Below, piece after piece: positions 20,094 through 55,228 of a DNA stretch of 64,000 nt. Position numbers and translations under genes: made by a program. The notes beneath the pieces are model-generated. The model did no database searches and was not told the DNA's origin. It saw only the letters and a list, made by a program, of their open reading frames with translations. This stretch comes from Arthrobacter bambusae (GTDB lineage: Bacteria > Actinomycetota > Actinomycetes > Actinomycetales > Micrococcaceae), in NCBI RefSeq assembly GCF_022606295.1, contig NZ_JAHHZS010000013.1, positions 1-64,000 on the forward strand. Direction: 5' to 3'. Each line of letters starts with the position of its first letter. Position 1 is the stretch's first letter.

Positions 20094-20280
20094 GTGTGCA
20101 CAATGTGAACACTTTGGCCTTCGGACTGGGTCGTACATCGGCCGGACTGGGCCGTACTCGGCATGTTTTCGGGAGTTCTCAGTGTTTCCGCGGCCTGGAA
20201 TGCGGTTCGAGTCCCACCTCGGGCACAGCTTTTTCGCAGGTCAGGGGCTTTTTGTCTTCTTACTGTTGACAAAGCTTGAC
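20094..20280 (+). repeat. Junction repeat copy 1 (att-like, tRNA-Leu 3' fragment)
   Basis: Palindrome-like GTGTGCACAATGTGAACAC (20094-20112, one mismatch) is followed by two direct repeats GGACTGGGTCGTAC (20123) and GGACTGGGCCGTAC (20144), 21 bp apart. Then comes GGTTCGAGTCCCACCTCGGG and CAC at 20204-20226, the T-loop and acceptor 3' strand of a tRNA-Leu. A left-end motif CTGTTGACAAAGCTTGAC follows at 20263-20280. The rest of the tRNA is missing. The 21-bp repeats look like integrase arm sites; the tRNA end is the core. Confidence 0.8.
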
Positions 20281-21285
20281 TTTTTGGAATTCTTCAGAAA
20301 GAAAATCCATCGCGTCGAGGGTAGGAAACCTCGACCCCGAGGAGATCACTACGCGGAGCAGGTCCGACGTTTCTCGAAGACTTGGCCCGAAATCCGCGCT
20401 GGGTGAGAGCTGAAATCGGGGCACGGGGCCATGCACGCGATGGAGCCGTTCCCGCCGCAGACGGCGACGGCAGTCAGTTTCAGGAACCCGGCGCACTTCG
20501 GAGTGCTGTTCCTTGACTAGGCGTGAGATCGGGGGCATGGCCACGCGAAAAGGGTCAACGAAAGCAGCTTCGCTCGAAGCGACGCTCCATAGTAGCCGCT
20601 TGCTCGTCTCGGATCATTGCCGCCGTCCCCACACGGAGGCGCTGGCCAATGTGCCGTACACGCCCGTCGCGCTGGGAAAGCACGACGCCGAGGCGGTCGA
20701 CCCTTGCTGTGGAATTAGCCAGGCCGGGGAGTTTTTCATGGAATAATCTCGGCGAGCTAAGCAAGAAATGAGTCACGACACCGATCGAGGGCTGTTAGAT
20801 GTCTCAGATTGTTGCCCTCAGCCGCTGCAACGCCAGCCTTGCCCGAAAAACGAAAGTGTCCGGTTGGCAAGGGACCTTCCGCCCACTTCCCGCCACCCGG
20901 GCGCTTATCTCGGTCGAGCGCTTGCCGATCTACGGCGCAATAGACTTGAACTTTTCCAACCGGCACCGTTCAGGTGCGCTTACACGCCCTAAATTCCATG
21001 AAGCAGCAGAGTACTGCCGGCATGTAGCGAAATATTCGGGGCCAAGGGACACTGACATTACTTGGGTAAGTTCTCTGGCATCACGTATTTCAGGTGTGCG
21101 TCATCAGTAAGTTTGTTGCGGCGTCCTAAGCTCTCATTCCCAATGACATCCCTAATCGAGGCATGCAAACCTAAGGTTCAGCCGCTGGCAGGAAACGCCG
21201 CTGGAGGAATCGTTCAGCTTTCATCAGTTCCGCGATTTGACGTTCTAAGATGATCCTTGGTCCGTTTTGTATGGGGGTGGTTGGA
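20281..21285. other. No supportable gene
   Basis: About 1 kb between the junction and the first cargo gene of island 1. Several short frames exist on both strands but none has a domain or a good ribosome site. Confidence 0.5.
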
Positions 21286-22533
21286 ATGGCGCGGAGTCGC
21301 GGATTTCTTGCAGAAATTCAACGTCAACAGCGGTTGGCTCAGCAGCGGGAGAATGCTTCTCAACGGGCGTCTGCGGCTGCCCAGGCAAGGGCGGAGAGAG
21401 CGCGGGCTGCCGCGGTTCGGGCTGCGGCGGCAGCGGAACGGGCGTCTGAGGCCCAGCGCAAGCGGCTCGAGAAGGAGGCCAATGCCGCGCACGTCGAGGC
21501 GCAGCAGGCCGTGGCCGAAAAGCTGAACGCGGACCTAGCCAACGAGTACTCGCAGATCGACGGACTCCTTGCTGCCACCCTGGAGTCAGACGACTGGGTT
21601 GACCTGCAGTCGCTGAAGCAGACAGTGCAGCACCCGCCATTCCCCCATCCCGAACTGGAAAGTCCGAATCCAGTTCCTAGACCCATTGAGGTACCCCCAG
21701 CTCCGGTTCGGCGCGAACCGGAGCCTCCAACGGGACTCTTCGGCCGGAAGAAGAAGCTCGAGGCGGCTCGCCAGGAGGCCGAGATCGAGTATGAGCAGGC
21801 CATGCGGGAGTGGACGGCGTACCGGGACTCGATCCCGGCAAAGGAGGCTGCGCTCAAAGCGACACGTGCTGCCTTCGAAAAGAAGAGGCTCGAGCAGCTC
21901 AAGGCTGAAACTTCCCGTTATGAGGGGGACTGCAAGGAGCGCGAGAAGGAGGTGGCCGAGCACAACGCTGCCATCGACGACCTTGAGGCCGCCCTCGGCT
22001 ACGGGGTAGCCGACGCGGTCGAGGAGTACGTCGGGATCGTTCTAGCTAACTCCCTCTATCCCGAGCGCTTCCCCGTTCAGCACGAGGCCAAGTTCGACCC
22101 GGATACGGCTGAGTTGAAGCTCACTGTTGCTGTGCCAGCACCGGACCAAGTCCGCACCGTGAAGGCCTATAGGTACGTCAAGGCCAGCGACGAGATCACC
22201 GAGACCCAGCTGTCGAAGGCGGAAGCGAGCAATCGCTACGCCTCCGCACTGCACCAGGTCGCGATCAGATCACTGCACGAGATCTTCGAGTCCGACCGTC
22301 AGGGCCTCATCCATGCGGTCTCCCTGCAGGTCGGCCCCCAGACGAAGGACCCCGCGACGGGGCGAAGCACGTTCATTCCGCTCGTCGCGGTGACCTCACC
22401 CCGGGAGACGTTCCTGGAGTTCGACCTCTCTGGTGTGGTCCCTGCTGCCACGCTCCAGCACCTCGGCGCTGCCGTGTCGAAGAACCCCTCGGCGCTGTCA
22501 GCGGTGGATCCCGCCGGCGTACGCCGTTCATGA
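21286..22533 (+). CDS. Coiled-coil protein paired with a DUF4041 gene
   Basis: A 415-aa protein. Residues 10-100 are an Ala/Glu/Arg-rich coiled coil. Then come a Pro-rich linker (about 105-150), a basic segment GLFGRKKKLEAA and a second coiled coil to about 230. A C-terminal globular domain ends LEFDLSGVVPAATLQHLG and VDPAGVRRS. There is no signal peptide. I chose the ATG at 21286. The next gene overlaps by ATGA. Similar pairs in actinobacteria are often labelled restriction-system proteins, from my recall only. A role as partner of the GIY-YIG protein is inferred. Confidence 0.6.
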   Translation: MARSRGFLAEIQRQQRLAQQRENASQRASAAAQARAERARAAAVRAAAAAERASEAQRKRLEKEANAAHVEAQQAVAEKLNADLANEYSQIDGLLAATLESDDWVDLQSLKQTVQHPPFPHPELESPNPVPRPIEVPPAPVRREPEPPTGLFGRKKKLEAARQEAEIEYEQAMREWTAYRDSIPAKEAALKATRAAFEKKRLEQLKAETSRYEGDCKEREKEVAEHNAAIDDLEAALGYGVADAVEEYVGIVLANSLYPERFPVQHEAKFDPDTAELKLTVAVPAPDQVRTVKAYRYVKASDEITETQLSKAEASNRYASALHQVAIRSLHEIFESDRQGLIHAVSLQVGPQTKDPATGRSTFIPLVAVTSPRETFLEFDLSGVVPAATLQHLGAAVSKNPSALSAVDPAGVRRS

Positions 22534-23918
22534 GCCCGGATCGCCTGCGGTTCAACCCGGCCCCCGGGTGGCCACCTGCACGGGCGGGGTGGACGCCCCC
22601 TGCGGGTTGGAGGCCGCCGAGCTCCTGGCCTCCGCCGCCGACGGGCTGGCAGCTCTGGATCCCCGACGGCGAGGATGAAGCGGTCGACGAGCCCACCGGT
22701 ATGCCGGATCCCGACTGTGCCGAGCTCGCGCAAGAGACAACGCAGGCAGGCGCCCTTGGTTCCGGGGGTGAGACGTCCACGGGGAGGATCGAAGCACTCG
22801 AGGCAGAGAACGCAAGACTCCGCCGACTCCTCGAGGACGCGTCCGCGGCGTCTGAAGCCGATGTTCAGCTCGATGACCAGAAGGTGCTGCAGGAAGTCGG
22901 CGTCTACCGGTACCACCACCCTCTTGAGAACGCCGCGGCATACCTGTCACGCCTCCAAGACGTCGAGTCCCGCGCGGCGGCCCTGATCCGCGACGGCCAC
23001 GCGATCGAGACGTCGAACATGTTCACTTTCGACAACTCGCTGGCCAAGGGACGGAAGATGTCCGCAGACATGGCCAAGCTAATGCTCCGCGCCTACAACG
23101 CCGAAGCCGACAACAGCATCCGCACGCTGAAGGCCGGCAACGTTTAGACGGCCAAGCGGCGACTGGAAGCCTCCCGCGTCGCGATCGCCCGATTGGGAGC
23201 GATAATGCAGATGCGCATCAGCGATGCCTACCATTCTCTCCGCATTGGGGAGATCGAGCTGACGGCTGACTGGCTGATGATGAAGCAGGAGGAGAAGGAG
23301 CGGGAGCGCGACGAGCGGGCCCGGCTCCGCGAGGAACGGCGCGTGGAGAAAGAGCTCGCGGAGGAACGTGCCAGGCTCGACAAGGAACGCGCGCTGCTCA
23401 TGCAGACGCTCGAGACCCTCACCGCCGCCGGGACCACGAACGACGACCTCGTCCGGCGGCTCGCCGAAATCGACCAGGCGATCGCGGAGAACGACTACCG
23501 TGCAGCCAACATCCGCGCAGGCTACGTCTACGTCATCTCCAACCGAGGAGCGTTCGGCAAGGGAGTCGTCAAGATCGGCCTGACCCGCCGGCTCGACCCC
23601 ACGGACCGTGTCAGCGAGCTCAGCGGAGCCTCTGTCCCCTTCCGCTTCGACATCCATACCATCTACTTCTCCGAAGATGCCGTCACCCTCGAAGCCGATC
23701 TACACCGTCACTTCGCAGACCGCGCCGTGAATCAGGCGAACGCCCGGAAGGAGTTCTTCTTCGCCACACCGGCCGAGGTACGGGACGTCCTAGCAGGCAA
23801 AGTCGGTAATCTCCTCGAGTTCACCGAAGAGGCTGAGGCGACCGAATACTTCCAGTCTTTGGGCGCGTGGCCTCCCCAGCGAAGAGCATTAGACGGCGGA
23901 TTAGAAACATCGAGCTGA
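22530..23918 (+). pseudogene. DUF4041/GIY-YIG protein split by an amber stop
   Basis: One continuous frame of 463 codons. The N-terminal part holds a Pro-rich segment and the DUF4041-like region (QEVGVYRYHHPLENAAAYLS). A TAG at 23145-23147 interrupts it after LKAGNV, yet the same frame continues with no further break through the coiled coil EEKERERDERARL to a GIY-YIG (T5orf172) nuclease domain. Its motifs are GYVYVISN and VKIGLTRRLDPTDRV, with Glu in HRHFADRAVNQ further on. A restart at ATG 23205 is possible. A nuclease domain tied to DUF4041 is typical of phage-related and defence genes. Either a recent nonsense mutation or readthrough explains the stop. Confidence 0.75.
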
Positions 23919-23973
23919 CGAGATAACAGACGGAACGTTATATGCGGCTGTCGCACCTTGACGAACTGGCACG

Positions 23974-24450
23974 GTGCTGAATGCGAACCTCCCCAACCCT
24001 CAGACACGAAGGGTGCCCATGTCATGCGGATCGGAAGGCCGCCTTATCGGTAAGGGCGGGAAGACGCCCGCATCGTTCCCGTGGATCCGTGATGCCCCTG
24101 TGCTGGTCTACTGGGGCGACATGGACTGCGACGGCTACGAGATCCTGGATGGCTACCGGGCCGACTTCGGGCGCGACATCGAGTCGATCCTCATGGGACC
24201 GGAGGCCTACGAGGCCTACGAGGTCTTCGGCACAGAACTGGACCAGACGGGCCGGGTGCTCCAGCCCGGCAAGCCGAGGCCGGTGGAGACGCTCCGCGCA
24301 GAAGAGCGGATGGTGTACCTGCGTCTCCTCGATCCGCAGCATACCGGCCACCGGCGCGTCGAGCAGGAACGGATCCCCCTCGCCAGGGCGCTGGAAAAAG
24401 TGGAGTTGGTTCGCCGGAGGTTGGACCGGTGCGAAATCTTTGGGCCCTGA
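23974..24450 (+). pseudogene. JetD (Wadjet nuclease) C-terminal remnant
   Basis: From about 24040 the frame reads VLVYWGDMDCDGYEILDGYR, the TOPRIM-like active-site segment of JetD (DUF2220), in which WGDxDxDG binds metal. It then continues to VEQERIPLARALEKVELV, the conserved C-terminal end. The N-terminal DUF3322 half and JetA, JetB and JetC are absent. Wadjet systems cut circular plasmid DNA; this fragment cannot act alone. It shows that a Wadjet operon once entered this locus. Confidence 0.7.
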
Positions 24451-25084
24451 CGTAAATTGGGTGCTGTTTGCAAGGCCTCTTGGGGTGACATGCAGAAATC
24501 CGGAATTACGTTCAACACCAACCGGATGCCGGAGAAGTGGCGCCACCATTTCAAGATCTACCGCGCCAAGATCAGCGTCTATCTGGACACGGCTGACTTC
24601 GGGCGCAGGGGATCGAGGAACCTTCGTTAGTCACGAAGACGGGACCGGTAAAATCGGGAGGTGAAGCACTCCGGATCAAGCGGAAGTCCCCGGCGGCCTG
24701 CCTTCCCGGCCAGCGAATCAGGGCAGTCGTGCACCGCAGCAGCAAGACGCGGATCAGCTTCATGGCGGAACCCTGGACCGGCGCGGAGCAGGAATACTGG
24801 ATCGAGGGTTGACGCGGCCGCCGACAAGTACCTTGAGTTGCTGACTGTCGCACTGGAAGACGGCAAGATCATCGGCGACGAAGCGAAAGCACTAAGCAAC
24901 CGAGGAATTGGGCCAATCTCCCCTCTACACCGTCTATAACGCTCACGCCTGTAGGACGTGATGCATGAAAAACAGGCTCGATGGCAAGGGGAGTTAGTAA
25001 TCTAGCTATTCCTGGTAGGCGGACGAACCAGCGCACCCCCAGGACAGCCGCGCTCGATGTGACTGGGGGCAGGATGGACCGGCC
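24451..25084. other. Remnant stretch
   Basis: About 630 bases without an intact gene. A 46-codon frame at 24490-24630 (MQKSGITFNTNRMPEKWRHH) may be the end of a former cargo gene, but I do not recognise it. Confidence 0.45.
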
Positions 25085-27514
25085 TCAAGCAATTGCAGCT
25101 TCAAGGCTGCTTCCGGAGTTGGGCGCACGGCTTGCTAGAAGCACGGCGTCCAACTCCAACGCAGTACACATGTCCATAAAATGCTTGGAATCATGGTTTC
25201 GCATGAGTTCAAACACGGCATGAAGAACGGAAACAGCCTCGGGACGATTGACTCCCCGCGTGGTCTCCACGCGCTCTTGGTGCGAGTATTGATGCAGGTA
25301 AGTGACCAATCTCTGACGTGTCAGGCCATCATCAACCTGGTCAATTGCTGCTTGCATCTGAAGTCTGAAATCACCCATTAGGGCGGGGAATTTGAAGCTA
25401 AGAAATCCTTCCAACATCCGTCGGCAAATGTTGGGAAGGATGATGGCCGCGTCCATCTCGTGCTCAATTGTGGGTTCGCCTTGGCACGAGATCAGCGTTG
25501 AGGCCGCCCTCCAAAACAGATAGTGGTATTCCGATCTCAGGCGTGTACGAAGCGCCTTGTGCTCCTTGTTTTGGTCAGACCCCCAATCGCGCCAGACGGG
25601 CACGCGACGTGCAACCCCTACTTCCACTCTCCTGCCCTGAGCCTGTAGCTCGAGAATCTTGAAGCGGCGCCCTTGTTTCATTACGCTGCTTTGGAGCCGA
25701 TCTAGTTGGTTGGACCAAATCCGGAAAAGTTCGAAGTTGTGGGTCATCAGGAAGACCTGGCCACAGTCGCGGGTGGGCTTCTGGCCGCATGAACAATCCA
25801 GTGGTGCTCCGCACGAGCAAATGGAAGGCTGGACCAATTCCGACCAAAGTAGGCTCGACGCGCCGACTGTAAAGTTCTCGTCCAAGCTAGACACGGGATC
25901 GTCAATAACGATGATTTGGTCACGACGGCTCCGACCTCCGGTGTTAAGGCTCCGGACGAAGTAGAGCAACGCCAGAGCCGTGCATTCGCCCTCACTCAGG
26001 TGCAGAGCCGGCTCACCGTGCCTATATATCGCGTAGCGATTGCCTTCCACAGGCTCCACCCTGAGGTCGGACCTGCCCAGAAGGGTTTGCAGACGGTGGT
26101 TTAGCCATTCGGCCGGGGGCGCAGGATCAAGCTCGGCATTTTCTAGCTCAGTGATGACACGCCGAGTATCTTTGATCGCCTTGGCATTGTCTTCAACAGC
26201 CATTGCGGCAGCGTCTGCATCATGTAGTGCCGCCATATAGGTCTCTTGTTGCTCACCGATCCAAAAGGCTTCCAGGCTTTGACAAGCCGACTTCCGAACA
26301 GCTTCAAACCGGGTACTTCTGTCGTTGTGGGTAGCAAGGAGCTTTTTGAGCGGCCTGACGTCCGGAATCGAAAACGACTTAGTCCGCCAACTCTCCGGAA
26401 GAGGAGCCGCAGCATGTAGATGCTGCTGCTTGCGTTCGAGGAACTCCCGGAGCTTCTCCAGTTCGCTAAGATCTATTTGAATTTGGATCTTCAGTGAGCT
26501 TCGAAGCAGGTCATATTCGGTCCGAAACTCTGGGTAGAGCAGTCCCGACTCAGGAAAAAGCGCGTGCAACTTGCCTAACGACGCGACCAGGGCTTCGAGC
26601 TGTTTGCCGAGCAGGCGTAAATCATTTTGCAGCTCACGCGAGCTGGAGTCGAAGTGGCGGTTTAGAGCCTCTAGGCGCTCTTGAGACAACTCGCCCGTAC
26701 AGAAGAGGCACACATGCTCATGGTTGTGGAGATCCAGACCTTGTTGTACCCAAGCAGCCCGTTCGGGGTGTGCTGCCAAAGTATCAATGACTCGTGCTGT
26801 TGGGATCCGTTCGAAAACACCGCTGATGGTCGAACACGAGAGAGGCTCTATAGCTGAAATCAGAGGTATGTCGACCTCCTTTAGGAACGTGCTCTGAGCT
26901 TTCGCTATCTCTTCTTCGGTCCTAAAATCACTGCGCTCCTCAAGCGGCATCGCGAAGGGTAGTCGCTTCAAGACGTTGCGAGCGTCGTAACCTCGACCGT
27001 AGCCGTCTACCCCGCCAAGGGTGGACGTAACGAGTGTCCCGATGCTCTTAAGAATGGCGTTAGGAAGCGCCTGCTTGCGCTTGGCTTCTTTCGTCAAAGA
27101 GTCGGTTAGGCGCGACAAGTCGTCCAAGCGCGTACGCGCGGCTCGGAGCTCTTTCTCACGGTTCGCGTTTGCCTTGCCGATTGCCAAGAGTGCTTTGGCC
27201 TCGCCGACCGAAAAGTCGAAGCAATCGGCAACATAATCCTTGTTGAAGACTGACATCCGATCCCAAAAGGCATCCTCAGAAGATACAACGGTTCTCGTCT
27301 CTGTGATTCCCTTACCGGAAACCTCCACAGAGACGCCGGCTTCCCATGCATCGGGTGATTGGGCGGGGGAAAGGAGTGACGCTAAGGTCGACTTGCCAGT
27401 GCCGTTGTTGGCATAGATGAGATTGATGTCGCTGAAGCCTGTGAAATCGCTGCTGGGAGACCAGTTCTGAAAGATGCGGAAATTTTTGATGGACCGGACG
27501 TTCTCTATGCGCAA
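25085..27514 (-). CDS. AAA_13 ATPase with zinc hook, RloC-like
   Basis: An 809-aa SMC/ABC-like ATPase. Walker A ANNGTGKST is at 35-43, a central coiled coil carries a CLFC hook near 267-270, the ABC signature LSEGECTAL is near 505 and Walker B IIVIDDPVSSLDE near 538. The switch His lies in MTHNFELF near 590. Between Walker B and the His a Cys-rich insert (CSCGAPLDCSCGQ, then CG) may bind another zinc. The C-terminal domain has RSEYHYLF near 660, which could be the Arg-Glu-His cluster of anticodon nucleases such as RloC/PrrC, but this match is weak. The start is TTG after a GGGGG site. Most relatives act in phage defence. No partner gene adjoins it. Confidence 0.78.
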   Translation of the reverse strand: MRIENVRSIKNFRIFQNWSPSSDFTGFSDINLIYANNGTGKSTLASLLSPAQSPDAWEAGVSVEVSGKGITETRTVVSSEDAFWDRMSVFNKDYVADCFDFSVGEAKALLAIGKANANREKELRAARTRLDDLSRLTDSLTKEAKRKQALPNAILKSIGTLVTSTLGGVDGYGRGYDARNVLKRLPFAMPLEERSDFRTEEEIAKAQSTFLKEVDIPLISAIEPLSCSTISGVFERIPTARVIDTLAAHPERAAWVQQGLDLHNHEHVCLFCTGELSQERLEALNRHFDSSSRELQNDLRLLGKQLEALVASLGKLHALFPESGLLYPEFRTEYDLLRSSLKIQIQIDLSELEKLREFLERKQQHLHAAAPLPESWRTKSFSIPDVRPLKKLLATHNDRSTRFEAVRKSACQSLEAFWIGEQQETYMAALHDADAAAMAVEDNAKAIKDTRRVITELENAELDPAPPAEWLNHRLQTLLGRSDLRVEPVEGNRYAIYRHGEPALHLSEGECTALALLYFVRSLNTGGRSRRDQIIVIDDPVSSLDENFTVGASSLLWSELVQPSICSCGAPLDCSCGQKPTRDCGQVFLMTHNFELFRIWSNQLDRLQSSVMKQGRRFKILELQAQGRRVEVGVARRVPVWRDWGSDQNKEHKALRTRLRSEYHYLFWRAASTLISCQGEPTIEHEMDAAIILPNICRRMLEGFLSFKFPALMGDFRLQMQAAIDQVDDGLTRQRLVTYLHQYSHQERVETTRGVNRPEAVSVLHAVFELMRNHDSKHFMDMCTALELDAVLLASRAPNSGSSLEAAIA

Positions 27515-28102: not shown

Positions 28103-28133
28103 AGGGACCCCTGCCTGCCGCAGGGGTCTCTCT
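28103..28133 (+). terminator. Intrinsic terminator
   Basis: GAGGGACCCCTGC pairs with GCAGGGGTCTCTC around a short loop and is followed by TTTG. It lies before the leader of the 28541 gene with no clear gene ending upstream, so it may insulate that leader. Confidence 0.65.
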
Positions 28134-28245
28134 TTGCGAAGGCCAGAAGCACTGCTGATGATCCGCGTGCACAGTTAAATTTGGAGCGACTGCTAACTTA
28201 AGGAGTAGATACGAACGTGCGCTGTTACGCGTAACCAAAAACCTA

Positions 28246-28427: not shown

Positions 28428-28451
28428 GTCAGCCTCAAAATCATGACCCCT

Positions 28452-28484: not shown

Positions 28485-28540
28485 TGCCCTTATCCGAAAC
28501 TTCCGGGCGCCGCAGACGCCCTCAGACACAGAAGGTAACC

Positions 28541-41371: not shown

Positions 41372-41382
41372 CATGGGCTTTG

Positions 41383-46083: not shown

Positions 46084-47892
46084 ATGAAAACTCAGTTGGA
46101 ATTCGACACGGATGTGCTCATTGTCGGCACCGGCCCGACCGGAGCCACGGCGGCTCTGGCACTGGCCACCCAAGGGGTGCGCGTCCACATGCTTTCGCGG
46201 TGGAACTGGCTCGCCAATACTCCCCGCGCACACATCACGAACCAGCGGGCCGTGGAGGTACTGCGGGACCTGGGTGTGGAAGAAGAAGCCGCCAAGTACG
46301 CCGTTCCCTGGGGTGACATGGGCGATACCTTGTTCACCACCAGCCTTGCGGGACAGGAAATAGCCCGGCTCCGCACCTGGGGGACAGGGGACGAGCGGTA
46401 CGGGGATTACCTGAAGGCCAGCCCGTGCACGATGCTCGACGTTCCACAGCCGCTGATGGAACCGATCCTGCTCAAGAACGCCGGCGAACGCGGGGCGCAG
46501 GTCACCTTCAACACCGAGTACCTCTCCCACGTCCAGGACAGGGACGGCGTGACCGTGACGTTCCGGAACCACGTGACCGGTACGGACTACACGCTGCGGG
46601 CCCGGTACCTGATCGGCGCCGACGGTGCCCGCTCCCAGATTGCCGAAGACATCGGCCTGCCCTTCGAAGGTCAGCTTGCCCGCGCCGGCACGGCGTATGT
46701 CCTTTTTAAGGCGGACCTGAGCAAGTATGTCGCCCACCGCCCCAGCATCCTGCACTGGATCATGAACCCGGTCGCCGGCTTCGGCGAAATCGGCATGGGG
46801 CTGCTGCGGGCCGTGCGTCCGTGGGGCGAATGGATCGCCGGCTGGGGATTCAACATGGCCGACGGCGAACCCGACCTCTCCGAGGACACCGTACTGGCGA
46901 AAATCCGCACCCTCGTGGGCGACCCGGACCTTGAAGTTGATGTCCAGACGAAGTCCACCTGGTACGTGAACCAGCAGCACGCCAACCAGTTCTCCGTCGG
47001 ACGGGTCTTCTGCGGAGGAGACGCCGTGCACCGCCATCCGCCGAGCAGCGGCCTGGGTTCCAACACCTGCATGCAGGACGCCTTCAACCTCGCATGGAAA
47101 CTCGCCTACGTCATCAAGGGCTACGCGGGGGAAAGCCTGCTGGACTCCTATTCCCTCGAACGCGCGCCCGTCGGCCGGCAGATCGTCGCCCGCGCCAACC
47201 AGTCCCGCAAGGACTACGGCCCCCTGAACGAGACCTTCCGCGTCCCGGGCCAGGAACACAGCATCGAAGCAGGGCTGGCACGGCTGCACGCGCCGACCCC
47301 GGAAGGCGTCGAACTGCGCCAGAAACTGCAGGAAGCCCTGGAACTGAAGAACTACGAATTCAACGCCCACGGCGTGGAACTCAACCAGCGCTACGAATCC
47401 GCCGCCGTCATCCCCGACCCGACAGCGGGAGAGGAACAGTGGGCCAAAGACCCGCAGCTCTACGTCCAGCCGACCACCCGGCCGGGAGCGAAAATCCCGC
47501 ACGCCTGGCTTGTGGACCCCAACGGCAGCCGCACCTCCACCCTGGACGTCACCGGCCACGGCAAATTCAGCCTCGTCACCGGACTCGCCGGCAGGGCCTG
47601 GGAAGCCGCCGCCGCGGAGCTGAATGAACCCTTCCTGCGCACAGTCGTCATCGGCGAAAAGGGTGCAGAAGACCCCTACGGCGCCTGGCACAAGGTCCGC
47701 GGCATCCATGAGGCCGGCGCCCTGCTCGTCCGCCCCGACGGCTACATCGCCTGGCGCCAAAGCGCCCCCGTGTGGGATGTGGAGACAGCCCGCACCGAAC
47801 TCCGGACCGCACTGGACGCCATCCTTGGCCACACCCAACAGACCACCCCCGAAAACGTAGGAGAAACCCGTGAATTCACGCACGTACACTAG
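46084..47892 (+). CDS. FAD-dependent aromatic hydroxylase (TfdB/PheA-like)
   Basis: A 602-aa flavoprotein monooxygenase. The FAD site GTGPTG is at 15-20, GADGARS near 178 and GGDAVHRHPPSSGLGSN, with Asp313, closes the FAD site. A C-terminal thioredoxin-like domain of about 200 residues is present, as in phenol hydroxylases. The start ATG at 46084 has AGAAGG upstream; earlier in-frame starts lack homology. It should turn a phenolic substrate into a catechol using NAD(P)H and O2. It is the first gene of the ring-cleavage operon. The phenol substrate itself cannot be read from sequence. Confidence 0.85.
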   Translation: MKTQLEFDTDVLIVGTGPTGATAALALATQGVRVHMLSRWNWLANTPRAHITNQRAVEVLRDLGVEEEAAKYAVPWGDMGDTLFTTSLAGQEIARLRTWGTGDERYGDYLKASPCTMLDVPQPLMEPILLKNAGERGAQVTFNTEYLSHVQDRDGVTVTFRNHVTGTDYTLRARYLIGADGARSQIAEDIGLPFEGQLARAGTAYVLFKADLSKYVAHRPSILHWIMNPVAGFGEIGMGLLRAVRPWGEWIAGWGFNMADGEPDLSEDTVLAKIRTLVGDPDLEVDVQTKSTWYVNQQHANQFSVGRVFCGGDAVHRHPPSSGLGSNTCMQDAFNLAWKLAYVIKGYAGESLLDSYSLERAPVGRQIVARANQSRKDYGPLNETFRVPGQEHSIEAGLARLHAPTPEGVELRQKLQEALELKNYEFNAHGVELNQRYESAAVIPDPTAGEEQWAKDPQLYVQPTTRPGAKIPHAWLVDPNGSRTSTLDVTGHGKFSLVTGLAGRAWEAAAAELNEPFLRTVVIGEKGAEDPYGAWHKVRGIHEAGALLVRPDGYIAWRQSAPVWDVETARTELRTALDAILGHTQQTTPENVGETREFTHVH

Positions 47893-48784
47893 CGTCTGGT
47901 CCGACCTCAACCAGGTCGAATTCAGCCAGGGCTTCCTCCAGGCCGGCCCCTACCGCACCCGCTACCTGCACGCCGGCGACAGCTCCAAGCCCACCCTGCT
48001 GATGCTCCACGGCATCACCGGCCACGCCGAAGCCTACGTCCGCAACCTCAAAGCCCACGCCGAGCACTTCAACGTCTACGCCATCGACTTCATCGGCCAC
48101 GGCTACAGCAGCAAGCCCGAACACGCGCTGGAAATCCGGCACTACATTGACCAGGTCAACCACTTCCTGGACGCCATCGGTGTCGAAAAGGCCTACTTCA
48201 CCGGCGAGTCCCTCGGCGGTTGGGTCACGGCACGCTTCGCCATCGAGTACCCCGAACGGGTCGAACGCATCGTCCTGAACACCATGGGTGGCACGATGGC
48301 CAACCCAGTTGTGATGGAACGGCTCTACACACTCTCCATGGAAGCTGCGAAGGACCCGTCCTGGGAGCGCGTGAAGACGAGGCTCGAATGGCTCATGGCC
48401 GACCCCGCCATGGTGACCGATGACCTCATCCGCACCCGCCAGGCCATCTTCCAGCAGCCCGACTGGCTGCGCGCGTGCGAAGCCAACATGGCACTGCAGG
48501 ACCGGGAAACCCGCCGCAGGAACATGCTCACCGATGATGACCTGCGCTCTATCCAGGCGCCCGCCCTCGTCGTCTGGACCACCAAGGATCCCTCAGGCCC
48601 GGTCGATGAAGGCCGCCGCATCGCGGGCCTCATCCCCAACGGCCGCCTCGCCGTCATCGAAAACGCCGGCCACTGGCCCCAGTACGAACAACCCGAAATC
48701 TTCAACAAAATCCACCTGGACTTCCTGCTCAGCCTCGACGCCTGCACCGGCACGGAACTGACCCCCGAACACGCGAACGGCTAG
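47870..48784 (+). CDS. Meta-cleavage product hydrolase
   Basis: A 304-aa alpha/beta hydrolase of the MhpC/BphD type. The nucleophile Ser114 lies in GESLGG, an Asp in WTTKDPSGP near 240 and His268 in NAGHWPQYEQP. GHGYSSKPEHALEIRHY is the typical cap approach. It starts at GTG 47870 with TAGGAG upstream, overlapping the hydroxylase by 23 bases. It should hydrolyse the C-C bond of the ring-opened dienoate, releasing an acid and 2-hydroxypenta-2,4-dienoate. Confidence 0.87.
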   Translation: MNSRTYTSVWSDLNQVEFSQGFLQAGPYRTRYLHAGDSSKPTLLMLHGITGHAEAYVRNLKAHAEHFNVYAIDFIGHGYSSKPEHALEIRHYIDQVNHFLDAIGVEKAYFTGESLGGWVTARFAIEYPERVERIVLNTMGGTMANPVVMERLYTLSMEAAKDPSWERVKTRLEWLMADPAMVTDDLIRTRQAIFQQPDWLRACEANMALQDRETRRRNMLTDDDLRSIQAPALVVWTTKDPSGPVDEGRRIAGLIPNGRLAVIENAGHWPQYEQPEIFNKIHLDFLLSLDACTGTELTPEHANG

Positions 48785-48793
48785 GAGACCGCC

Positions 48794-49738
48794 ATGACTG
48801 TTGCACTGCTAGCCATGTCCCACAGCCCGCTGCTGGAACACGGGGATCCCGGGCCCGAAATCAAAGCCGAAGTCGAGGCCGCCTTCGAAGCCGCTCGCAG
48901 CTTCGTCCACGACTACGACCCGGACGTGGTCATCAACCTCGGACCCGACCACTACAACGGCTTCTTCTACCAACTCATGCCGCCATTCTGCATCGGCTAC
49001 GACGCCGTCAGCATCGGCGACTACGGAAGCCAGGCAGGACCGCTGAACGTCCCGAAAGACATCGCGGAAGGCCTCGCCCAGTTTGTGATCGACCGCGGCA
49101 TCGACATCGCCATCTCCCTGAAAATGGAAGTCGACCACGGCGCCGTCCAGCCCATGGAGCTCATGTACGGGGACATCACAGCCAAGCCCATCGTGCCGGT
49201 CTTCATCAACTCCGTCGCCCCGCCCTTCACCCCGCTCAAACGCGTCCGCCTCCTCGGCGAAGCCATCGGCGAATACCTGAAGACACTGGACCGGAAGGTC
49301 CTGCTGATCGCCTCCGGAGGCCTCTCCCACGATCCTCCGGTGCCCCGGCTGGCAACCGCCACCGAAGCGCAACGCAGGATGCTGCTCGGCGCCGACGGCC
49401 ATCAAACGGCCGAAGCGCGTGCCGCCCGGCAACAGCGGGTCTACGACACCGCCGACGCCTTCGCCCGCGGCGAAGCGGACATCCAGGACCTCGCCCCCGA
49501 ATGGGACCACCAACTGATGAAGATCCTCGCCTCCGGCGACCTGTCACCCATCGACGCCTGGACGCCCCAGGAAATGACCGAAACCGCCGGGAACTCCTCC
49601 CACGAAGTCCGCTCCTGGATCGCCGCCTACGCAGCACTCGGCGCCATCGGACCCTACACCGTCCAGTACAGCTACTACCGCCCGATCCGTGAATACATCG
49701 CCGGCTTCGGCGTCACCACCGCAACCCTCAACAACTAA
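48794..49738 (+). CDS. mhpB: Class III extradiol ring-cleavage dioxygenase (MhpB-like)
   Basis: A 314-aa LigB-superfamily dioxygenase. His10 in LLAMSHSPLL, GPDHYNGFFYQLMPPF, KMEVDHGAVQPMELMYG and ASGGLSHDPPVPR hold the Fe(II) ligand and acid-base His residues of the MhpB family. Closest in type to 3-carboxyethylcatechol 2,3-dioxygenase, which opens the ring of 3-(2,3-dihydroxyphenyl)propionate. TAGGAGA precedes the start. The substrate is presumably a 3-substituted catechol made by the upstream hydroxylase. Confidence 0.9.
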   Translation: MTVALLAMSHSPLLEHGDPGPEIKAEVEAAFEAARSFVHDYDPDVVINLGPDHYNGFFYQLMPPFCIGYDAVSIGDYGSQAGPLNVPKDIAEGLAQFVIDRGIDIAISLKMEVDHGAVQPMELMYGDITAKPIVPVFINSVAPPFTPLKRVRLLGEAIGEYLKTLDRKVLLIASGGLSHDPPVPRLATATEAQRRMLLGADGHQTAEARAARQQRVYDTADAFARGEADIQDLAPEWDHQLMKILASGDLSPIDAWTPQEMTETAGNSSHEVRSWIAAYAALGAIGPYTVQYSYYRPIREYIAGFGVTTATLNN

Positions 49739-49755
49739 CCAACCCGCCACACGAT

Positions 49756-49776
49756 CTAGACGTCTAGCATGCTAGA
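49756..49776. promoter_or_regulatory. Candidate GntR operator inside the pathway
   Basis: TCTAGCATGCTAGA (49763-49776) is a perfect 14-bp palindrome overlapped on its left by CTAGACGTCTAG (49756-49767). It lies between the dioxygenase and the hydratase, so the operon probably has a second regulated promoter here. Confidence 0.6.
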
Positions 49777-49834
49777 CCGTGTGATGTCCCTTTTCTCGCC
49801 GCAGCCTACGGGCTGCACGACAGAGAGCAACCTC

Positions 49835-50671
49835 ATGACACACCAACCCACTCCCGCCAAGGACGGCGGAGCGGTTACGGCGCGCACGTCGCCGGCGAGC
49901 CTCAGGAGCGTCGCCAACACCCTTCTCGGCGCCCTGAAGACAGCACGCCCCTGCAAGCCCGTGCGTGATCTCCTCGACGGTGATCTGGACTCGGCTTACG
50001 AGGTTCAGGAACTGATGATCCAGAGCCGGACCAGCCTCGGGAACCGCCGTATTGGACGCAAAGTCGGACTGACCGCCCCGGCCGTCCAGCGCCAGCTCGG
50101 CGTTGACCAGCCCGACTTCGGCGTCCTGCTCTCGGACATGCAGTTGGGGGAGGACGAACAGATCCCGTACGACAGACTCATCGCTCCGCGCATCGAAGCG
50201 GAAATCGCCTTCATCATGGGTCGCGACGTCGACGCCACCGACCGAGACTCGGTCCTGTCGGCCGTGGACTACGTCGCACCGGCCCTTGAAATCGTGGACA
50301 GCCGCATCGCCGGATGGGACATCGGCATCGTCGACACGGTGGCCGACAACGCCTCCAGCGCCTACTTCGTCCTCGGCCAAGGCAAGGCGACACTTAACGG
50401 CTACGTCCCGGCCGGGGCGGAAATGATCATGACCATCAACGGTCAACAGGGCTCGATGGGGACCGGGGCGGACTGCCTCGGGGATCCCGTCAACGCCCTG
50501 CTCTGGGTCGCGGAAACCGCCGCCGCGTTGGGCCGGCCCCTCCGGGCCGGGGAGATCGTTCTCTCCGGCGCCCTCGGCCCCATGGCCCCCCTCAACGCCG
50601 GCGACATCGTCGAAGCCCGCATCGGCGGGCTGGGCACCGTCACCGCATCAGTCACTAAGGAGCTCTCATGA
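49835..50671 (+). CDS. mhpD: 2-keto-4-pentenoate hydratase (MhpD-like)
   Basis: A 278-aa hydratase of the fumarylacetoacetase-like superfamily. It has [20 protein letters not shown], then DFGVLLSDM and [11 protein letters not shown], the typical metal-binding acidic cluster, and [12 protein letters not shown]. The ATG at 49835 follows an AGAGAG stretch; a frame start at 49769 overlaps the operator and is unlikely. It hydrates 2-hydroxypenta-2,4-dienoate to 4-hydroxy-2-oxovalerate. It overlaps the next gene by ATGA. Confidence 0.88.
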
Positions 50672-51612
50672 GCGCAAAAGCAGCCATCATCGGCTCAGGA
50701 AACATCGGCACCGACCTCATGTTCAAGATCTTGCGGCTGACCGACAAGCTGGAGATGGGCGTCATGGTCGGTATCGATCCCGCCTCCGACGGTCTGGCCC
50801 GGGCATCCCGGCTCGGCATCGCCACCACAGCCGAAGGAGTCGAAGGCCTCATCGCCATGCCGGAATTCGAGGATATCGAGGTCATCTTCGACGCCACCTC
50901 AGCCGGGGCCCACCGGCACAACGCCGCCGGACTGGCTCCTTTCGGGAAGAAGCTGGTAGACCTCACACCGGCCGCCATCGGACCCTACGTCGTGCCCTCC
51001 GTAAACCTCGAACAGCACCTGGACGCCGGCAACGTCAACATGGTCACCTGCGGCGGACAGGCCACCATCCCGGTCATCGCCGCCATCAACAGCGAAACAC
51101 CGGTTCACTACGGCGAAATCGTCGCCTCCATCTCCTCCAAGTCCGCCGGACCCGGGACACGCGCCAACATCGACGAATTCACCGAGACCACCTCCGATGC
51201 CATCGTCACCGTCGGGGGAGCGGCCAGGGGCAAGGCCATCATCGTGCTCAACCCGGCAGAACCGCCCATGATCATGCGCGACACCGTCCTGTGCCTGGTG
51301 GACCGGCTCACCGACGCCGAACAGGACCGCGTCGCCGCCGCCGTCCGGGACCGGGTCACCGAAGTCGCCGGCTACGTCCCCGGTTACCGGCTCAAGCAGG
51401 CCGTGCAGTTCCAAAACGAAGGTGCCGAAGTCAGCGGACTCATTCCCGAAGGCCGTGGAACAGGAGAATACACGAGGGTCAGCGTCTTCCTCGAAGTCGA
51501 AGGCGCCGCACACTACCTCCCGGAATACGCCGGAAACCTGGACATCATGACCTCCGCCGCGCTCCGCGTCGCCGAACGGCTGGTCACCACCAAAGAGGAA
51601 GTAGCATCATGA
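50668..51612 (+). CDS. mhpF: Acylating acetaldehyde dehydrogenase
   Basis: A 314-aa enzyme with GSGNIGTD (NAD-binding) at 9-16 and the catalytic Cys128 in [10 protein letters not shown]. The [20 protein letters not shown] stretch is typical of MhpF/BphJ/DmpF. It converts acetaldehyde plus CoA to acetyl-CoA and should channel acetaldehyde from the aldolase encoded just downstream, in a known bifunctional complex. Overlaps with both neighbours by ATGA. Confidence 0.93.
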
Positions 51613-52658
51613 GCCAGACCCCCACCCGCGTCTTCATCCAGGACGTCACCCTGCGCGACGGCATGCATGCCGTCCGCCACCGCCTCAGCCCCGAGAACGT
51701 CGCCAGGATCGCCGCGGCACTGGACGCCGCCGGCGTCGACGCCATCGAAGTAGCCCACGGCGACGGCCTCGCCGGCAGCAGCCTCACCTATGGCCCCGGA
51801 AGCCACACCGACTGGGAATGGATCGAAGCTGCCGCCTCGGTCGTCAAGAACGCCCGGCTCACCGCGCTGCTGCTGCCCGGCATCGGCACCCTGAAAGAAC
51901 TCCGCCAGGCCTACGACCTCGGCGTGCGCTCCGTCCGGGTCGCCACCCACTGCACCGAAGCGGACGTCTCGGCCCAGCACATCGCCTACGCCCGCGAACT
52001 GGGCATGGACGTCTCCGGATTTCTCATGATGTCCCACATGTCCGAGCCGGAAAAGCTCGCCGCCCAGGCCAAGCTCATGGAATCCTACGGCGCCCACTGC
52101 GTCTACGTCACCGACTCCGGCGGCGGCCTGACCATGGACGGAGTCCGCCAGCGGGTCCGTGCCTACCGCGACGTGTTGAAGGCGGAAACCGAAATCGGCA
52201 TCCACGCCCACCAGAACCTCTCCCTGGCCGTCGCCAACTCCGTCGTCGCCGTCGAAGAAGGCGCCTACCGCGTGGACGCCTCTCTCGCCGGCCACGGCGC
52301 AGGAGCCGGCAACACCCCGGTCGAACCCTTCGTCGCCGTCGCCACCCTGCACGGCTGGGAACACAATGCAGACCTCTTCGCCCTGCAAGACGCAGCCGAA
52401 GATCTCGTACGGCCCCTGCACGACCGGCCCGTCCAGGTCGACCGCGAAACCCTCACCCTCGGCTACGCCGGCGTGTACTCCAGCTTCCTGCGCCACGCAG
52501 AACGCGCCTCGGCCCGCTATGGCCTGGACACCCGGGACATCCTCGTCGAGGTCGGCCGCCGCCAGCTCGTCGGCGGCCAGGAAGACATGATCACCGACGT
52601 CGCCCTGGACCTGCAGCACGCCGCCAAAAAGCACCCCCAACCCCTCCCCGTCCGCTAA
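51609..52658 (+). CDS. mhpE: 4-hydroxy-2-oxovalerate aldolase
   Basis: A 349-aa aldolase of the DmpG/MhpE family (HMGL-like TIM barrel). [13 protein letters not shown] near 12-24 has the Mn-binding Asp and base, and [13 protein letters not shown] supplies His metal ligands. It splits 4-hydroxy-2-oxovalerate into pyruvate and acetaldehyde. It overlaps the dehydrogenase gene by ATGA, as expected for the partner enzyme. It lies before the transporter gene. Confidence 0.93.
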
Positions 52659-52683
52659 CACCACCTCTTCCAAGGAACCCCAA

Positions 52684-54042
52684 ATGTCAACGAAGACATC
52701 CCCGGCCGACAGCCATACCGGCCCCATGAAGGTGGCCATGGCCAGCCTCATCGGCACGACCGTCGAGTACTACGACTTCTTCATCTACGGGACAGCGGCC
52801 GCACTGGTCTTCCCCAAACTGTTCTTCCCGGAAGCGAGCCCGCTCATGGGCACGCTGCTGTCCTTTGCCACCTTCGGTGTCGGGTTCCTGGCCCGCCCTC
52901 TCGGGGGGATCGTGTTCGGGCACTTCGGTGACCGGGTCGGGCGGAAGACGATGCTCATCATCTCCCTGGTCGGCATGGGCGCCGCCACGTTCCTGATGGG
53001 ACTCCTGCCGGGGTATGCCCAGATCGGCATCGCCGCCCCCATCCTGCTGACCGTGCTGCGCATCATTCAGGGCTTCATGGTCGGCGGCGAATGGGGCGGC
53101 GCCACACTCATGGCCGTCGAACACGCACCTAAAGGCAAGAAGGGCTTCTTTGGTGCCTTCCCGCAGATGGGCGCCCCCGCCGGAACCAGCCTTGCCACCG
53201 TCGCCTTCCTCGGAGCAACCCAGCTGCCCGGGGACCAGTTCATCACCTGGGGCTGGCGATTGCCCTTCCTCGTCAGCGCCGTCCTGGTCATCGTCGGCCT
53301 GATCATCCGGCTCACCATCGCCGAAAGCCCCGCCTTCACCGCCGCCCGCGAAAAGCAGGAACTCGTCAAGCTCCCCATCAAGGAAGCCTTCCGCAGCCAC
53401 CCCAAGGAAATCTTCCTCGTTGCCGGCACGTACCTCAGTCAGGGCGTCTTCGCCTACATCACCATGTCCTACCTGGTGAACTACTCCACCGCGGTAGCTC
53501 AGATCGACCGCACCAGCGTCCTGCTCGGGGTCTTCCTAGCCGGACTCGTCGCCGTCGTCCTCTACCCGGTCTTCGGCTCCCTGTCGGACAAGTACGGCCG
53601 CAAGACGATGTACCTCATCGGGGCAGTGGCCATGGGCGTGCTCATCGGGCCCGCGTTCATGCTGATCAACACCGGCGTGGCGGCGAACTTCGTCCTGGCG
53701 GTGGTGCTGATCTTCGGCGTGGCGATGGCACCGGCCGCCGGCGTCACCGGGTCGCTGTTCTCCATGGTCTTCTCCCGCGAAGTCCGCTACACCGGAGCAT
53801 CAGTCGGATACACCATCTCCCAGATCTGCGGATCCGCGTTCGCCCCCACGATCGCCACCGCGCTGTTCGCCGCAACCAAGAGCAGCGACTCCATCGTCGT
53901 CTACCTCCTGATCGTCTCGGCCATCTCCATCATCTCCGTTGCGCTCCTCCCTGGAGGCTGGGGACGCAAGGAAGCAGCACGCCAAAACGGAGAGGGGCAG
54001 GAAACCCAACCCACCCCGCATCCCAGCACCGCTGACGCCTGA
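52684..54042 (+). CDS. MFS transporter, metabolite:H+ symporter family
   Basis: A 452-aa protein with 12 expected helices. GTTVEYYDFFIYGTAAALVF in helix 1 and GHFGDRVGRKTML, the motif A loop, are marks of the MHS family, which imports shikimate, alpha-ketoglutarate and aromatic acids. AAGGAA precedes the start. It closes the ring-cleavage operon. It likely imports the pathway's aromatic acid, so the substrate is probably anionic, such as a hydroxyphenyl-alkanoate. Confidence 0.87.
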   Translation: MSTKTSPADSHTGPMKVAMASLIGTTVEYYDFFIYGTAAALVFPKLFFPEASPLMGTLLSFATFGVGFLARPLGGIVFGHFGDRVGRKTMLIISLVGMGAATFLMGLLPGYAQIGIAAPILLTVLRIIQGFMVGGEWGGATLMAVEHAPKGKKGFFGAFPQMGAPAGTSLATVAFLGATQLPGDQFITWGWRLPFLVSAVLVIVGLIIRLTIAESPAFTAAREKQELVKLPIKEAFRSHPKEIFLVAGTYLSQGVFAYITMSYLVNYSTAVAQIDRTSVLLGVFLAGLVAVVLYPVFGSLSDKYGRKTMYLIGAVAMGVLIGPAFMLINTGVAANFVLAVVLIFGVAMAPAAGVTGSLFSMVFSREVRYTGASVGYTISQICGSAFAPTIATALFAATKSSDSIVVYLLIVSAISIISVALLPGGWGRKEAARQNGEGQETQPTPHPSTADA

Positions 54043-54106
54043 TCCGGCCATAGGGCGGGCGGCCGGTATGGCAACTAACCGTCCGCCCTAACCGGAAAAC
54101 GACGAA

Positions 54107-54487
54107 ATGGACAAGACGAGCGCAGCGACCACCAACGATTTGGACAAGGCCGCCACCAATCGACAGAAAGGGCCGGCCCCCATGCAAGGGAATTCCCGGT
54201 ACTACGAGCCCGCGAACGAACCCGGTGGTCTGGAAGCTGCCGGAATCCACCGCCCGTATCCCTTCATGGAATGGAGCATGCTGGTCGGCGCCGTCGTCGA
54301 TGTCAGGCGCGAAGGCATGTTCGTCAGGACAGGCTTCGTGGAAGACGCCACCCCGTCCGGCGACACGGCATGGATAGCGGCGGACGGGCTCGACCGCCGG
54401 ATCATGATCGAAAAGTCCGCAGGCTACGGCCTCTGGATCACAGCCGAGCAACTCCAGCTCCGGAGAGTCCGCCCCCCAATCCGCTGA
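54107..54487 (+). CDS. Hypothetical small protein after the transporter
   Basis: A 126-aa protein, not recognised. The first 40 residues look disordered. The core (about 45-120) has alternating strands (LVGAVVDVRREGMFVRTGFV, then DRRIMIEKSAGYGLWI) and could be a small beta-barrel domain. A start at 54182 would give a compact protein. It lies 64 bases after the transporter gene and may belong to the same transcript. Confidence 0.5.
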   Translation: MDKTSAATTNDLDKAATNRQKGPAPMQGNSRYYEPANEPGGLEAAGIHRPYPFMEWSMLVGAVVDVRREGMFVRTGFVEDATPSGDTAWIAADGLDRRIMIEKSAGYGLWITAEQLQLRRVRPPIR

Positions 54488-54576
54488 ATAGAGACCGGCT
54501 GTGGGAAGAGGCGCCGGCAGCAACGCCAAGAGAACCGCACTGCACGTCGCCAGATCAGCTACATAAAGGAGAGAAC

Positions 54577-54753
54577 GTGATCACCGTCCCCACCGAACCT
54601 AAGCTGGACAACTCCAACGACGGAAACGGCAGCACGCATGCAAGCGGCAGCCCGCGGAGCGCCGAAGACTTTCCCCAAGGCCAAATCACCTCATCAGCCT
54701 GGGAAGGCTGGTGGCACCAGACTGCCCCCCGAAGACTGAAGAATGACCTCTAA
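54577..54753 (+). CDS. Short hypothetical protein with strong ribosome site
   Basis: A 58-aa frame that starts at GTG with AAAGGAGAG six bases upstream. The sequence is polar and probably disordered, rich in Ser/Asn/Gly, ending SSAWEGWWHQTAPRRLKNDL. No family is recognised. The good ribosome site is the main support. It ends island 3; the next 315 bases, to the junction, hold nothing I can support. Confidence 0.5.
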   Translation: MITVPTEPKLDNSNDGNGSTHASGSPRSAEDFPQGQITSSAWEGWWHQTAPRRLKNDL

Positions 54754-55068
54754 GCTAGCTCAAAGACCGTGCCCGCAGAAGCCGGCACCTCGAAAGTTTG
54801 GCGGCACTCCCCACGGCGGCCCACGGAGTTATCCAGGTGGATGCGGGCCCGGTGAAGCTGAGAAATCATGAATTAGGCAAGGAGCAAAGTAGACGGACGC
54901 GACTGGAACGCGACTGAATTCAGCAGGTTTGATGCCGCCTGACGCCAGGCAAGAAGGATCGGCTCGGTCTGCCTGGGCTGCGGCGGTCCGATCGCCGTCC
55001 GGAAATCGGCCAGCCACTTTCGCCGCTAGACATCAACTGGTCTGTGCGGTCCTGACTGTGCAAGAAGG

Positions 55069-55228
55069 GTGTGCACAATGTGCACACTCCTGCCTTGGGA
55101 CTCGTCCGTACCGGGGCTGGACTGGCCCGTACTCGGCATGTTTCCAAGACTTCCCAGTGTTTCCGGGGCTTGGAAGCCGGTTCGAGTCCCACCTTGGGCA
55201 CAGCATGACCTCTCGTCAGAGGGGTTTT
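55069..55228 (+). repeat. Junction repeat copy 4 (att-like, tRNA-Leu 3' fragment)
   Basis: Perfect palindrome GTGTGCACAATGTGCACAC (55069-55087). Direct repeats GGACTCGTCCGTAC (55098) and GGACTGGCCCGTAC (55119) lie 21 bp apart. The tRNA-Leu 3' fragment at 55179-55201 has one change (CCTTGGGCAC). The terminator hairpin CCTCT/AGAGG with a T-tract ends near 55228. It closes the catabolic island on the right. Confidence 0.82.

Follow-up and report, generated by a model that had tools for sequence, protein, structure and literature searches.

The window analysed here is a stretch of 64,000 nucleotides from Arthrobacter bambusae (NCBI RefSeq assembly GCF_022606295.1, contig NZ_JAHHZS010000013.1, positions 1 to 64,000 of the forward strand), forming the first 64 kb of a 127.7-kb contig (C9) in a genome of 103 contigs. 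It carries four complete junctions on the forward strand (20094..20226, 30023..30155, 42116..42248 and 55069..55201), in each of which a palindrome is followed by two direct repeats and a 3' fragment of a tRNA-Leu gene, the core. We regard these junctions as the probable attachment sites of an array that grew by one site-specific insertion after another at the tRNA-Leu(CAA) 3' end, with integrase-less modules moving in trans. Their shared order and offsets, described in an initial annotation of the window, were recovered by reading of the sequence, by a repeat search and by an independent site profile. The repeat search of the window returned a single family with four copies of 178 nt, the other three being 70–77% identical to the first. 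The profile, comprising 133 positions and trained on 27 sites all taken from other genomes, identified exactly four complete sites in the window (106–117 bits, E 3e-35 to 6e-32), the top score in 50 dinucleotide-shuffled windows being 7.9 bits. An Rfam search of the window at gathering scores gave no match.

The 19-bp palindrome and the 23-bp tRNA-Leu 3' fragment (20204-20226 in junction 1) previously reported for all four junctions are indeed present in each, but the palindrome at 20094, which forms the left arm, is imperfect (its halves carry GC and GA), and the core of junction 4 has one mismatch against the tRNA. Past each core lies a right-arm site, reading TGTTGACA in module 1 (20264..20271, 37 bp past core 1) and module 2 (30194..30201, 38 bp past core 2), TGTGTACA in module 3 (42287..42294, 38 bp past core 3) and TGTGGACA in module 4 (55239..55246, 37 bp past core 4). 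TGTCCACA was also considered as a DnaA-box-like motif, a reading that the TGTTGACA and TGTGCACA alleles would contradict. The right arm, the absence of a tyrosine recombinase from the window contig and the toxin genes at module ends all lay outside the initial annotation.

The junctions divide the window into forward-strand modules, of which modules 1 to 3 have a left arm and core at one end and a core and right arm at the other. Module 0 (1..20226), whose left end is the contig end, contains arginase-family and thiamine pyrophosphate (TPP)-enzyme genes, and module 1 (20227..30155, 9.9 kb) a PrrC/AAA_13-like gene (25085-27514). Module 2 (30156..42248, 12.1 kb) carries a helicase gene (30516-33770), a caspase-domain gene (37788-39020) and a Gp49-type toxin gene at its end, while module 3 (42249..55201, 13.0 kb) carries an aromatic ring-cleavage set (45940-51612), a major facilitator superfamily (MFS) transporter and a GntR regulator. 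Module 4 starts at 55202, fills the window to 64000 and continues to C9:113342, reaching about 58 kb.

The genome assembly as a whole holds nine complete sites on four contigs: six on C9, including C9:113210 and C9:120909 beyond the window, and one each on C51 (C51:944), C67 (C67:1021) and C68 (C68:1095). Across these nine copies the palindrome stretch averages 79% identity; three stretches outside the site (100–300 bp to the left, 300–400 bp to the right) are only 27–29% identical in ungapped comparison, and the flanks are therefore unrelated. The tRNA gene search found none in the window and none on C9, and the intact tRNA-Leu(CAA) that is the source of the cores is located at C93:28401-28483. 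No exact end overlap of 15–300 bp was found between C9 and the tRNA contig (C93 left end only), or between the two ends of C51, C67 or C68, tested as possible circles. The earlier description of three modules inserted in one tRNA-Leu thus stands as far as stacking downstream of one tRNA is concerned, but not in its count, the genome holding nine sites or more, and the window contig is unjoined to the tRNA contig; because there are five further complete sites, 'three islands' is not the unit. A lone degenerate tRNA-Leu 3' fragment, matched by the core end of the site only, is present at C2:6588-6630 (L011).

On the same strand as the C93 tRNA, and starting 86 bp behind it, is the gene for a 376-aa tyrosine integrase (PF00589), designated P0001. 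Genes for NlpC/P60, TrbL, a TraG/D coupling protein, an ArdC-like protein, GmrSD and a TrwC relaxase follow. Judged by its gene content, this element, whose distal end is beyond the contig, is similar to an integrative and conjugative element (ICE): an integrase (PF00589), a relaxase (TrwC), a coupling protein (TraG-D_C) and, of the type IV secretion system (T4SS), TrbL were found behind an intact attachment (att) tRNA. A sigma-70-like gene is also present in C93:1-28315 (L019, L153), and the element is partly common to genomes G239 and G063. A PF00589 search of C9, C51, C67 and C68 revealed no tyrosine recombinase.

The anatomy of the site was established on 41 complete internal sites from 11 of 16 fetched genomes; outside this set are partial sites at G063:2067941, G164:1589394, G177:1928725, G227:3113609 and 2997284 and G239:1181405, and those in G295 and G381. 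From left to right the site comprises GTGTnnACAnTGTnnACAC, in which TGTnnACA occurs as an inverted pair, then a pair of CGGACTGG..CGTAC repeats at a distance of 21 bp, the conserved stretch ATGTTT..CCCAGTGTTT and the 23-bp tRNA 3' end, with 131–134 bp from palindrome start to core end in 39 of the 41 sites. Past the core there is a hairpin and then TGTnnAC, at 36–39 bp in 30 of 41 despite different hairpin sequence classes; counts of TGTnnACA in three 50-bp bins were 66, 35 and 10, with an expectation of 0.41 per bin. In 39 of 41 sites the two palindrome halves carry complementary dinucleotides at their variable positions (GG/CC in 17, GC/GC in 16 and TG/CA in 6), compared to a mean of 14.7 and a maximum of 26 in 10,000 shufflings, and all three palindrome alleles are present in G239, where 11 of 11 sites have matching halves. 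Such variation is compensatory change and speaks for selection on the sites, either now or in the recent past. The anatomy as a whole fits a tyrosine integrase whose core would be the 3' end of the tRNA, flanked left and right by arm sites. The C67 site (L017:1021-1164) has 11 additional bases, a duplication in the direct-repeat region.

Elements directly behind the tRNA differ in their arms. In six that carry an integrase or its start (C93, G239, G063, G137, G278 and G295) the arm is double, with sites at 38 and 59 bp, and integrase-less first modules have a single TGTnnACA arm at 36–39 bp in seven of eight cases; two arm sites 21 bp apart (L019, L094, L134, L108, L157, L158) versus one might separate lead elements from passengers. 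Genome G339, which is free of sites, has no TGTnnAC arm behind its tRNA, and the TGTnnACA arm therefore belongs to the modules.

This is a real system at one tRNA locus, found across the genus and in some neighbouring genera. Among 245 genomes drawn from the family, 31 in 8 of 32 genera had a match at E 1e-9 or better, weaker matches being mostly the tRNA alone, and among 248 drawn from the order eight had a match, every one in the same genus as the window. All 29 loci fetched from other genomes showed a complete or partial profile match. Nineteen genomes searched whole yielded 94 site matches that include arm sequence (38 + 56) from a total of 114, the excluded ones being 19 matches covering the core end only (tRNA genes and lone fragments) and G263:161327. 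Ninety of the 94 lie downstream of tRNA-Leu(CAA) on the tRNA strand (93 if the G263 contig is circular), which bears out the association of junctions with tRNA-Leu loci that had been set as a test. There are 11 complete sites in G239, 13 site matches in G263 and eight sites in G304, the last of them 548 kb behind the tRNA; successive sites are spaced 1,125 bp to ~76 kb apart, and the distance from tRNA to first site reaches 80 kb.

The tRNA-bearing left flank gave a match in every one of the 150 genomes of the genus. In 144 the match was strong (E below 1e-200); the remaining six matches had E 1e-4 to 1e-13, and five of these six genomes are under 85% complete. A 3.7-kb block served as anchor on the far side; it begins ~20 bp past the single complete junction that G137 has, and was found at E 0 in 40 of the 150 genomes (37 of these at 88–94% identity). 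In G339, where there is no site match (E 1e-5), the tRNA is 243 bp from the block. The corresponding distances in 20 other genomes are 5.0, 10.8, 15.1, 39, 41, 43, 58, 59, 65, 84, 91, 110, 186, 191, 194, 203, 222, 236, 373 and 533 kb, calculated without G279, G331 and G378 (tRNA and block on opposite strands) and without genomes that have them on different contigs.

Relatives of P0001 mostly occupy the same position. Of 68 in named genomes, 53 sit 83–103 bp behind tRNA-Leu(CAA), in Arthrobacter, Pseudarthrobacter and Paenarthrobacter records. In line with the initial view, the fragments do look like att cores of a tyrosine integrase targeting tRNA-Leu(CAA), with arm-like repeats. When seven relatives were used as queries on 15 occupied arrays, a full integrase was found 86–87 bp behind the tRNA in four and a broken one or a remnant near it in three (G278, G295, G292), with no P0001-type integrase at the tRNA in eight. 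Most modules examined lack such an integrase, and neither a P0001-type integrase nor a remnant was present within 1.5 kb after any of the 41 complete internal sites. Other tyrosine recombinases do occur within arrays, e.g. at G239:1209792-1211461 and in a three-gene cluster at G208:1411128-1413486. Paenarthrobacter and Arthrobacter plasmids (L240-L243) encode integrases 61–66% identical to P0001, and a search for an uninterrupted attP near them found no site in the stretches inspected of four plasmids (of five records). On the AT5 plasmid, a death-on-curing toxin gene immediately precedes a P0001-related integrase.

Arthrobacter phage integrases are ~40% identical to P0001, and no phage record reached 60%. 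Given this relationship, and with tRNA targeting and variable cargo in common with tycheposons, the modules could be phage satellites or prophage remnants, of tycheposon or phage-inducible chromosomal island (PICI) type, that depend on helper phages. We consider this very improbable: the integrase-bearing element has conjugation genes, all phage records fall below 60% identity and the scan, which took in part of the proteins of the window and the modules and no phage library, named no packaging gene.

Toxin genes adjoin the site in the window and elsewhere. A Gp49 (HigB-like) toxin-family gene (41149..41736, forward strand) stands at the end of module 2, a PIN_3-domain (VapC-like) gene (19334..19888, forward strand) lies 206 bp before junction 1, and an AbiEii toxin-family gene (17436..18257, reverse strand) is found near the end of module 0, where region 17437-18735 is 89% identical to C9:119450-120742, likewise preceding a junction. 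A module of 1,125 bp in G239 holds a ribbon-helix-helix (RHH) and Fic/Doc pair, and one of 2,136 bp in G299, directly behind the tRNA, holds an RHH and Fic/Doc-kind pair with a single further gene. The G239 pair has homologs in 106 of 206 genus genomes. The neighbourhood test covered 30 loci out of these 106 genomes, one being on our own contig C68, and 19 of the 30 have a same-strand site 26–364 bp downstream, counting three clearly partial sites (L277, L280, L293) and three without one profile end (L271, L273, L283). For the Gp49 gene (query region 41325-42053, ending 63 bp before the junction 3 palindrome), 17 of the 22 loci examined, which are a part of the places listed, have a site within 700 bp downstream, 15 of them at 61–77 bp; one duplicate was dropped (L265 = L294) and four positives are weak or partial (L302, L306, L307, L308). 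For a mid-module gene of module 2, taken as control, none of nine loci had a site within 1.5 kb. Among genes near the site, Fic was counted in 3 of 76 and Gp49 in 2 of 76 cases, and neither is among the 25 families listed for 76 length-matched mid-module controls. Because both family listings are incomplete (70 and 78 families), the linkage of toxins to the site rests on the homolog-neighbourhood test.

Parts of window module 2 recur in other arrays. In G263, a 96%-identical copy of its helicase segment begins just past a junction, so a module boundary coincides with a junction there too, which the initial annotation had set as a test; its Gp49 end recurs before another junction about 10.6 kb off, which means that the start and end of window module 2 belong to different modules in that genome. 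In the G227 array (L122, L127), a 2.4-kb segment is repeated at 96% identity ahead of two junctions, one of them partial, which suggests a duplicated module end. Both arrangements favour homologous recombination between repeated sites and shared toxin genes, rather than the integrase, as the main force shuffling modules, and so do the exact runs of up to 40 bp, often 23–35, shared by sites of our own genome. We nevertheless think it improbable, as it leaves the single tRNA, the single orientation, the fixed arm spacing and the compensatory palindrome unexplained, and the own-genome sites other than junction 1 are merely 70–87% identical to it.

Under the mechanism that we favour, insertion by the integrase and mobilisation in trans, a module would consist of the tRNA 3' end (core), a terminator-like hairpin, a TGTnnACA arm, cargo, sometimes a toxin-antitoxin pair, an inverted TGTnnACA pair, two CGGACTGG..CGTAC repeats and the next core. 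The ICE-like element that immediately follows the intact tRNA would supply a P0001-family integrase. This enzyme would insert modules in circular form at the tRNA, whose 3' end would be restored by that of the newcomer while older modules are pushed outward. A resident or incoming integrase would still recognise the sites of integrase-less modules and move them in trans, a step that we infer because the sites keep both their geometry and their palindrome symmetry. Toxin genes adjoining the site may stabilise the modules, and the repeats presumably serve as binding sites for the integrase during integration and excision.

A number of observations weigh against this mechanism. Excision circles, binding and mobilisation are proposed from sequence, none having been observed. 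Helicase matches had a site within 1.5 kb at one of two loci and matches to the end of module 1 at one of five, and no site was found within 700 bp downstream at 11 of 30 Fic-pair and 5 of 22 Gp49 loci. G263:3838612 is an exception to the rule that sites lie downstream of the tRNA, G236:4115247 is ~2 Mb from the sole core-type match listed on its contig, and G009 has two opposed sites on a contig other than that of the tRNA. Six genomes (G303, G275, G305, G347, G304 and G267) have sites beyond the block too, and variable DNA follows it; the block is therefore an anchor and not a proven right border of the island. Site score falls with distance from the tRNA, which agrees with new modules entering at the tRNA and older ones being displaced, but the weakness of the trend (pooled permutation p 0.029, with C9 taken as reading away from the tRNA) belongs on this side. 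Arm alleles pair within modules in 11 of 28 cases versus a shuffled mean of 7.7 (p 0.07), which we do not claim as an effect; they match across one junction in 9 of 32 (p 0.53). Pieces of integrase lie 13–749 bp after internal sites at L230, L235 and L239, and G295 and G381 have pieces at 0 and 1.4 kb past partial sites, indicating that some modules formerly carried one. Finally, in six G239 modules without an integrase the right arm has two sites (38 and 59 bp), as it typically does in elements that bear an integrase, which suggests integrase loss.

The integrase pieces and two-site arms are also what would be left by plain accretion of cis-mobilizable elements (CIMEs), in which the modules would be defunct leftovers of ICEs or of integrative and mobilizable elements (IMEs) that came with an integrase of their own and later lost it, and nothing moves in trans; the sites would persist because they are recent, or would still be used in cis by a neighbouring integrase. 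This reading, in whose favour there are also the ICE-like nature of the first element in our own genome and the three-step decay given in the published account of tandem islands (PMC5704250), seems to us doubtful, about half as likely as mobilisation in trans. It has to contend with the lack of any P0001-type remnant within 1.5 kb of the 41 complete internal sites, with the existence of 1–2 kb modules holding little beyond a toxin pair, and with the geometry and compensatory symmetry held by both arms across species, unexpected in dead DNA. In addition, none of the C93 open reading frames (ORFs) compared with C9, C51, C67 and C68 had a homolog there, conjugation families as such not having been searched on those contigs.

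What moves the integrase-less pieces of additive tRNA islands has, to our knowledge, rarely been established. The known systems closest to the arrays described here are additive islands anchored at tRNA genes and accretions of CIMEs. Cassettes are added at a conserved tRNA in the Alteromonas flexible genomic island (fGI) fGI1 (PMC4119200), and Methylopumilus fGI-2 is an additive island in which the last 20 bp of tRNA-Lys recur as a mark (PMC10872708). Our arrays resemble both in having one conserved tRNA target (flank in 150 of 150 genomes) with varied cassettes behind it, a length that changes from strain to strain (243 bp to 533 kb from tRNA to block) and tRNA 3'-end repeats marking the island; they differ in the 133-bp composite site with its conserved arms, compensatory palindrome and linked toxin pairs, the accessible portions of the fGI accounts describing the tRNA repeat alone. 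Accretion of CIMEs likewise stacks att-bounded integrase-less elements with an integrase-bearing ICE at a tRNA (PMC5704250), and window modules 1–3 are bounded by attL and attR, which would be used by one integrase. In contrast to that account, our arrays have up to 11 complete sites (G239) or 13 matches (G263), occur in several genera, include modules down to 1.1 kb and show no integrase remnant after the 41 complete sites examined. Tandem arrays of elements sharing an integrase are described as unstable (PMC3218068).

The likeness to integrons is of a different kind. Integron attC sites are folded. Recombinase-less integron cassette arrays, clusters of attC sites lacking integron-integrases (CALIN), are known (PMC11389934), and with integrons and CALIN the present arrays share a recombinase at a primary site, recombinase-less cassettes running in one direction from it (exceptions being G263, G236 and G009), recombinase-free arrays and toxin-antitoxin cassettes. 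Unlike an integron, they have an integrase that targets a tRNA and comes from an ICE-like element, their composite site has arm repeats, and their sites are spaced 1.1 to 76 kb apart. We tentatively suggest an integron-like system derived from an ICE integrase, in which the intact tRNA-Leu(CAA) would act as primary site. Modules that lack an integrase but have composite sites and linked toxin pairs would form a pool shared in these genera, and a resident or incoming integrase would capture and reshuffle them in trans into arrays of hundreds of kilobases. Site-linked toxin pairs parallel the toxin cassettes of integrons and suggest how modules without mobility genes persist.

The resemblance to tycheposons put forward in the initial annotation extends (PMC10872708) to the tRNA 3' target, large variable cargo and, in part of the arrays, a tyrosine recombinase near the tRNA. 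Membership of that group finds no support. At the head of the ICE-like element, which carries TrwC relaxase, TraG/D and TrbL, stands the integrase, and this places the arrays closer to ICE/CIME accretion and additive islands, and unlike tycheposons they have conjugation genes on the lead element, many sites per array and, in 8 of 15 arrays, no such recombinase at the tRNA. A literature search using a few spellings, with most subscription papers outside its reach, found no paper on Arthrobacter tRNA-Leu genomic islands. In this genus of soil degraders, accessory genome amounting to as much as hundreds of kilobases, with genes for defence, aromatic catabolism and conjugation, is marked by a fixed composite site that a profile can detect. 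As a single integrase family and a single tRNA are involved and the modules can be as small as 1.1 kb, trans mobilisation is directly testable.

Two of the window modules open with a conserved, apparently non-coding right-arm region, termed class B. The first (42249..42828, forward strand), with a further TGTGCACA at 42611, is homologous to the second (55202..55769, forward strand), with a further TGTGCACA at 55561, as well as to C51 and G227. Class B DNA, ~570 bp in length, opens class B modules and is a candidate for a further arm, an origin of transfer or a promoter. The ORFs at 42549-43076 and 55490-55966 were rejected as genes, having no Pfam match and an alignment that conserves DNA and not frame. 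A C68 ORF overlapping the region has an AraC-type domain at its C-terminal end, its N-terminal extension being doubtful.

As for cargo, the stretch 35365-40249 of module 2 is a candidate defence operon encoding an 808-aa glyoxalase-domain protein, the protein with the caspase domain (named 'caspase' by PADLOC) and one of 412 aa that matches a hydrolase weakly. The gene row at 45940-51612 in module 3 consists of a flavin adenine dinucleotide (FAD)-dependent aromatic hydroxylase, a hydrolase, a LigB-type ring-opening dioxygenase, a fumarylacetoacetate (FAA) hydrolase and an acetaldehyde dehydrogenase, and looks like a ring meta-cleavage pathway carried by one module. A 2,064-bp module in G292 carries a hydrolase gene.

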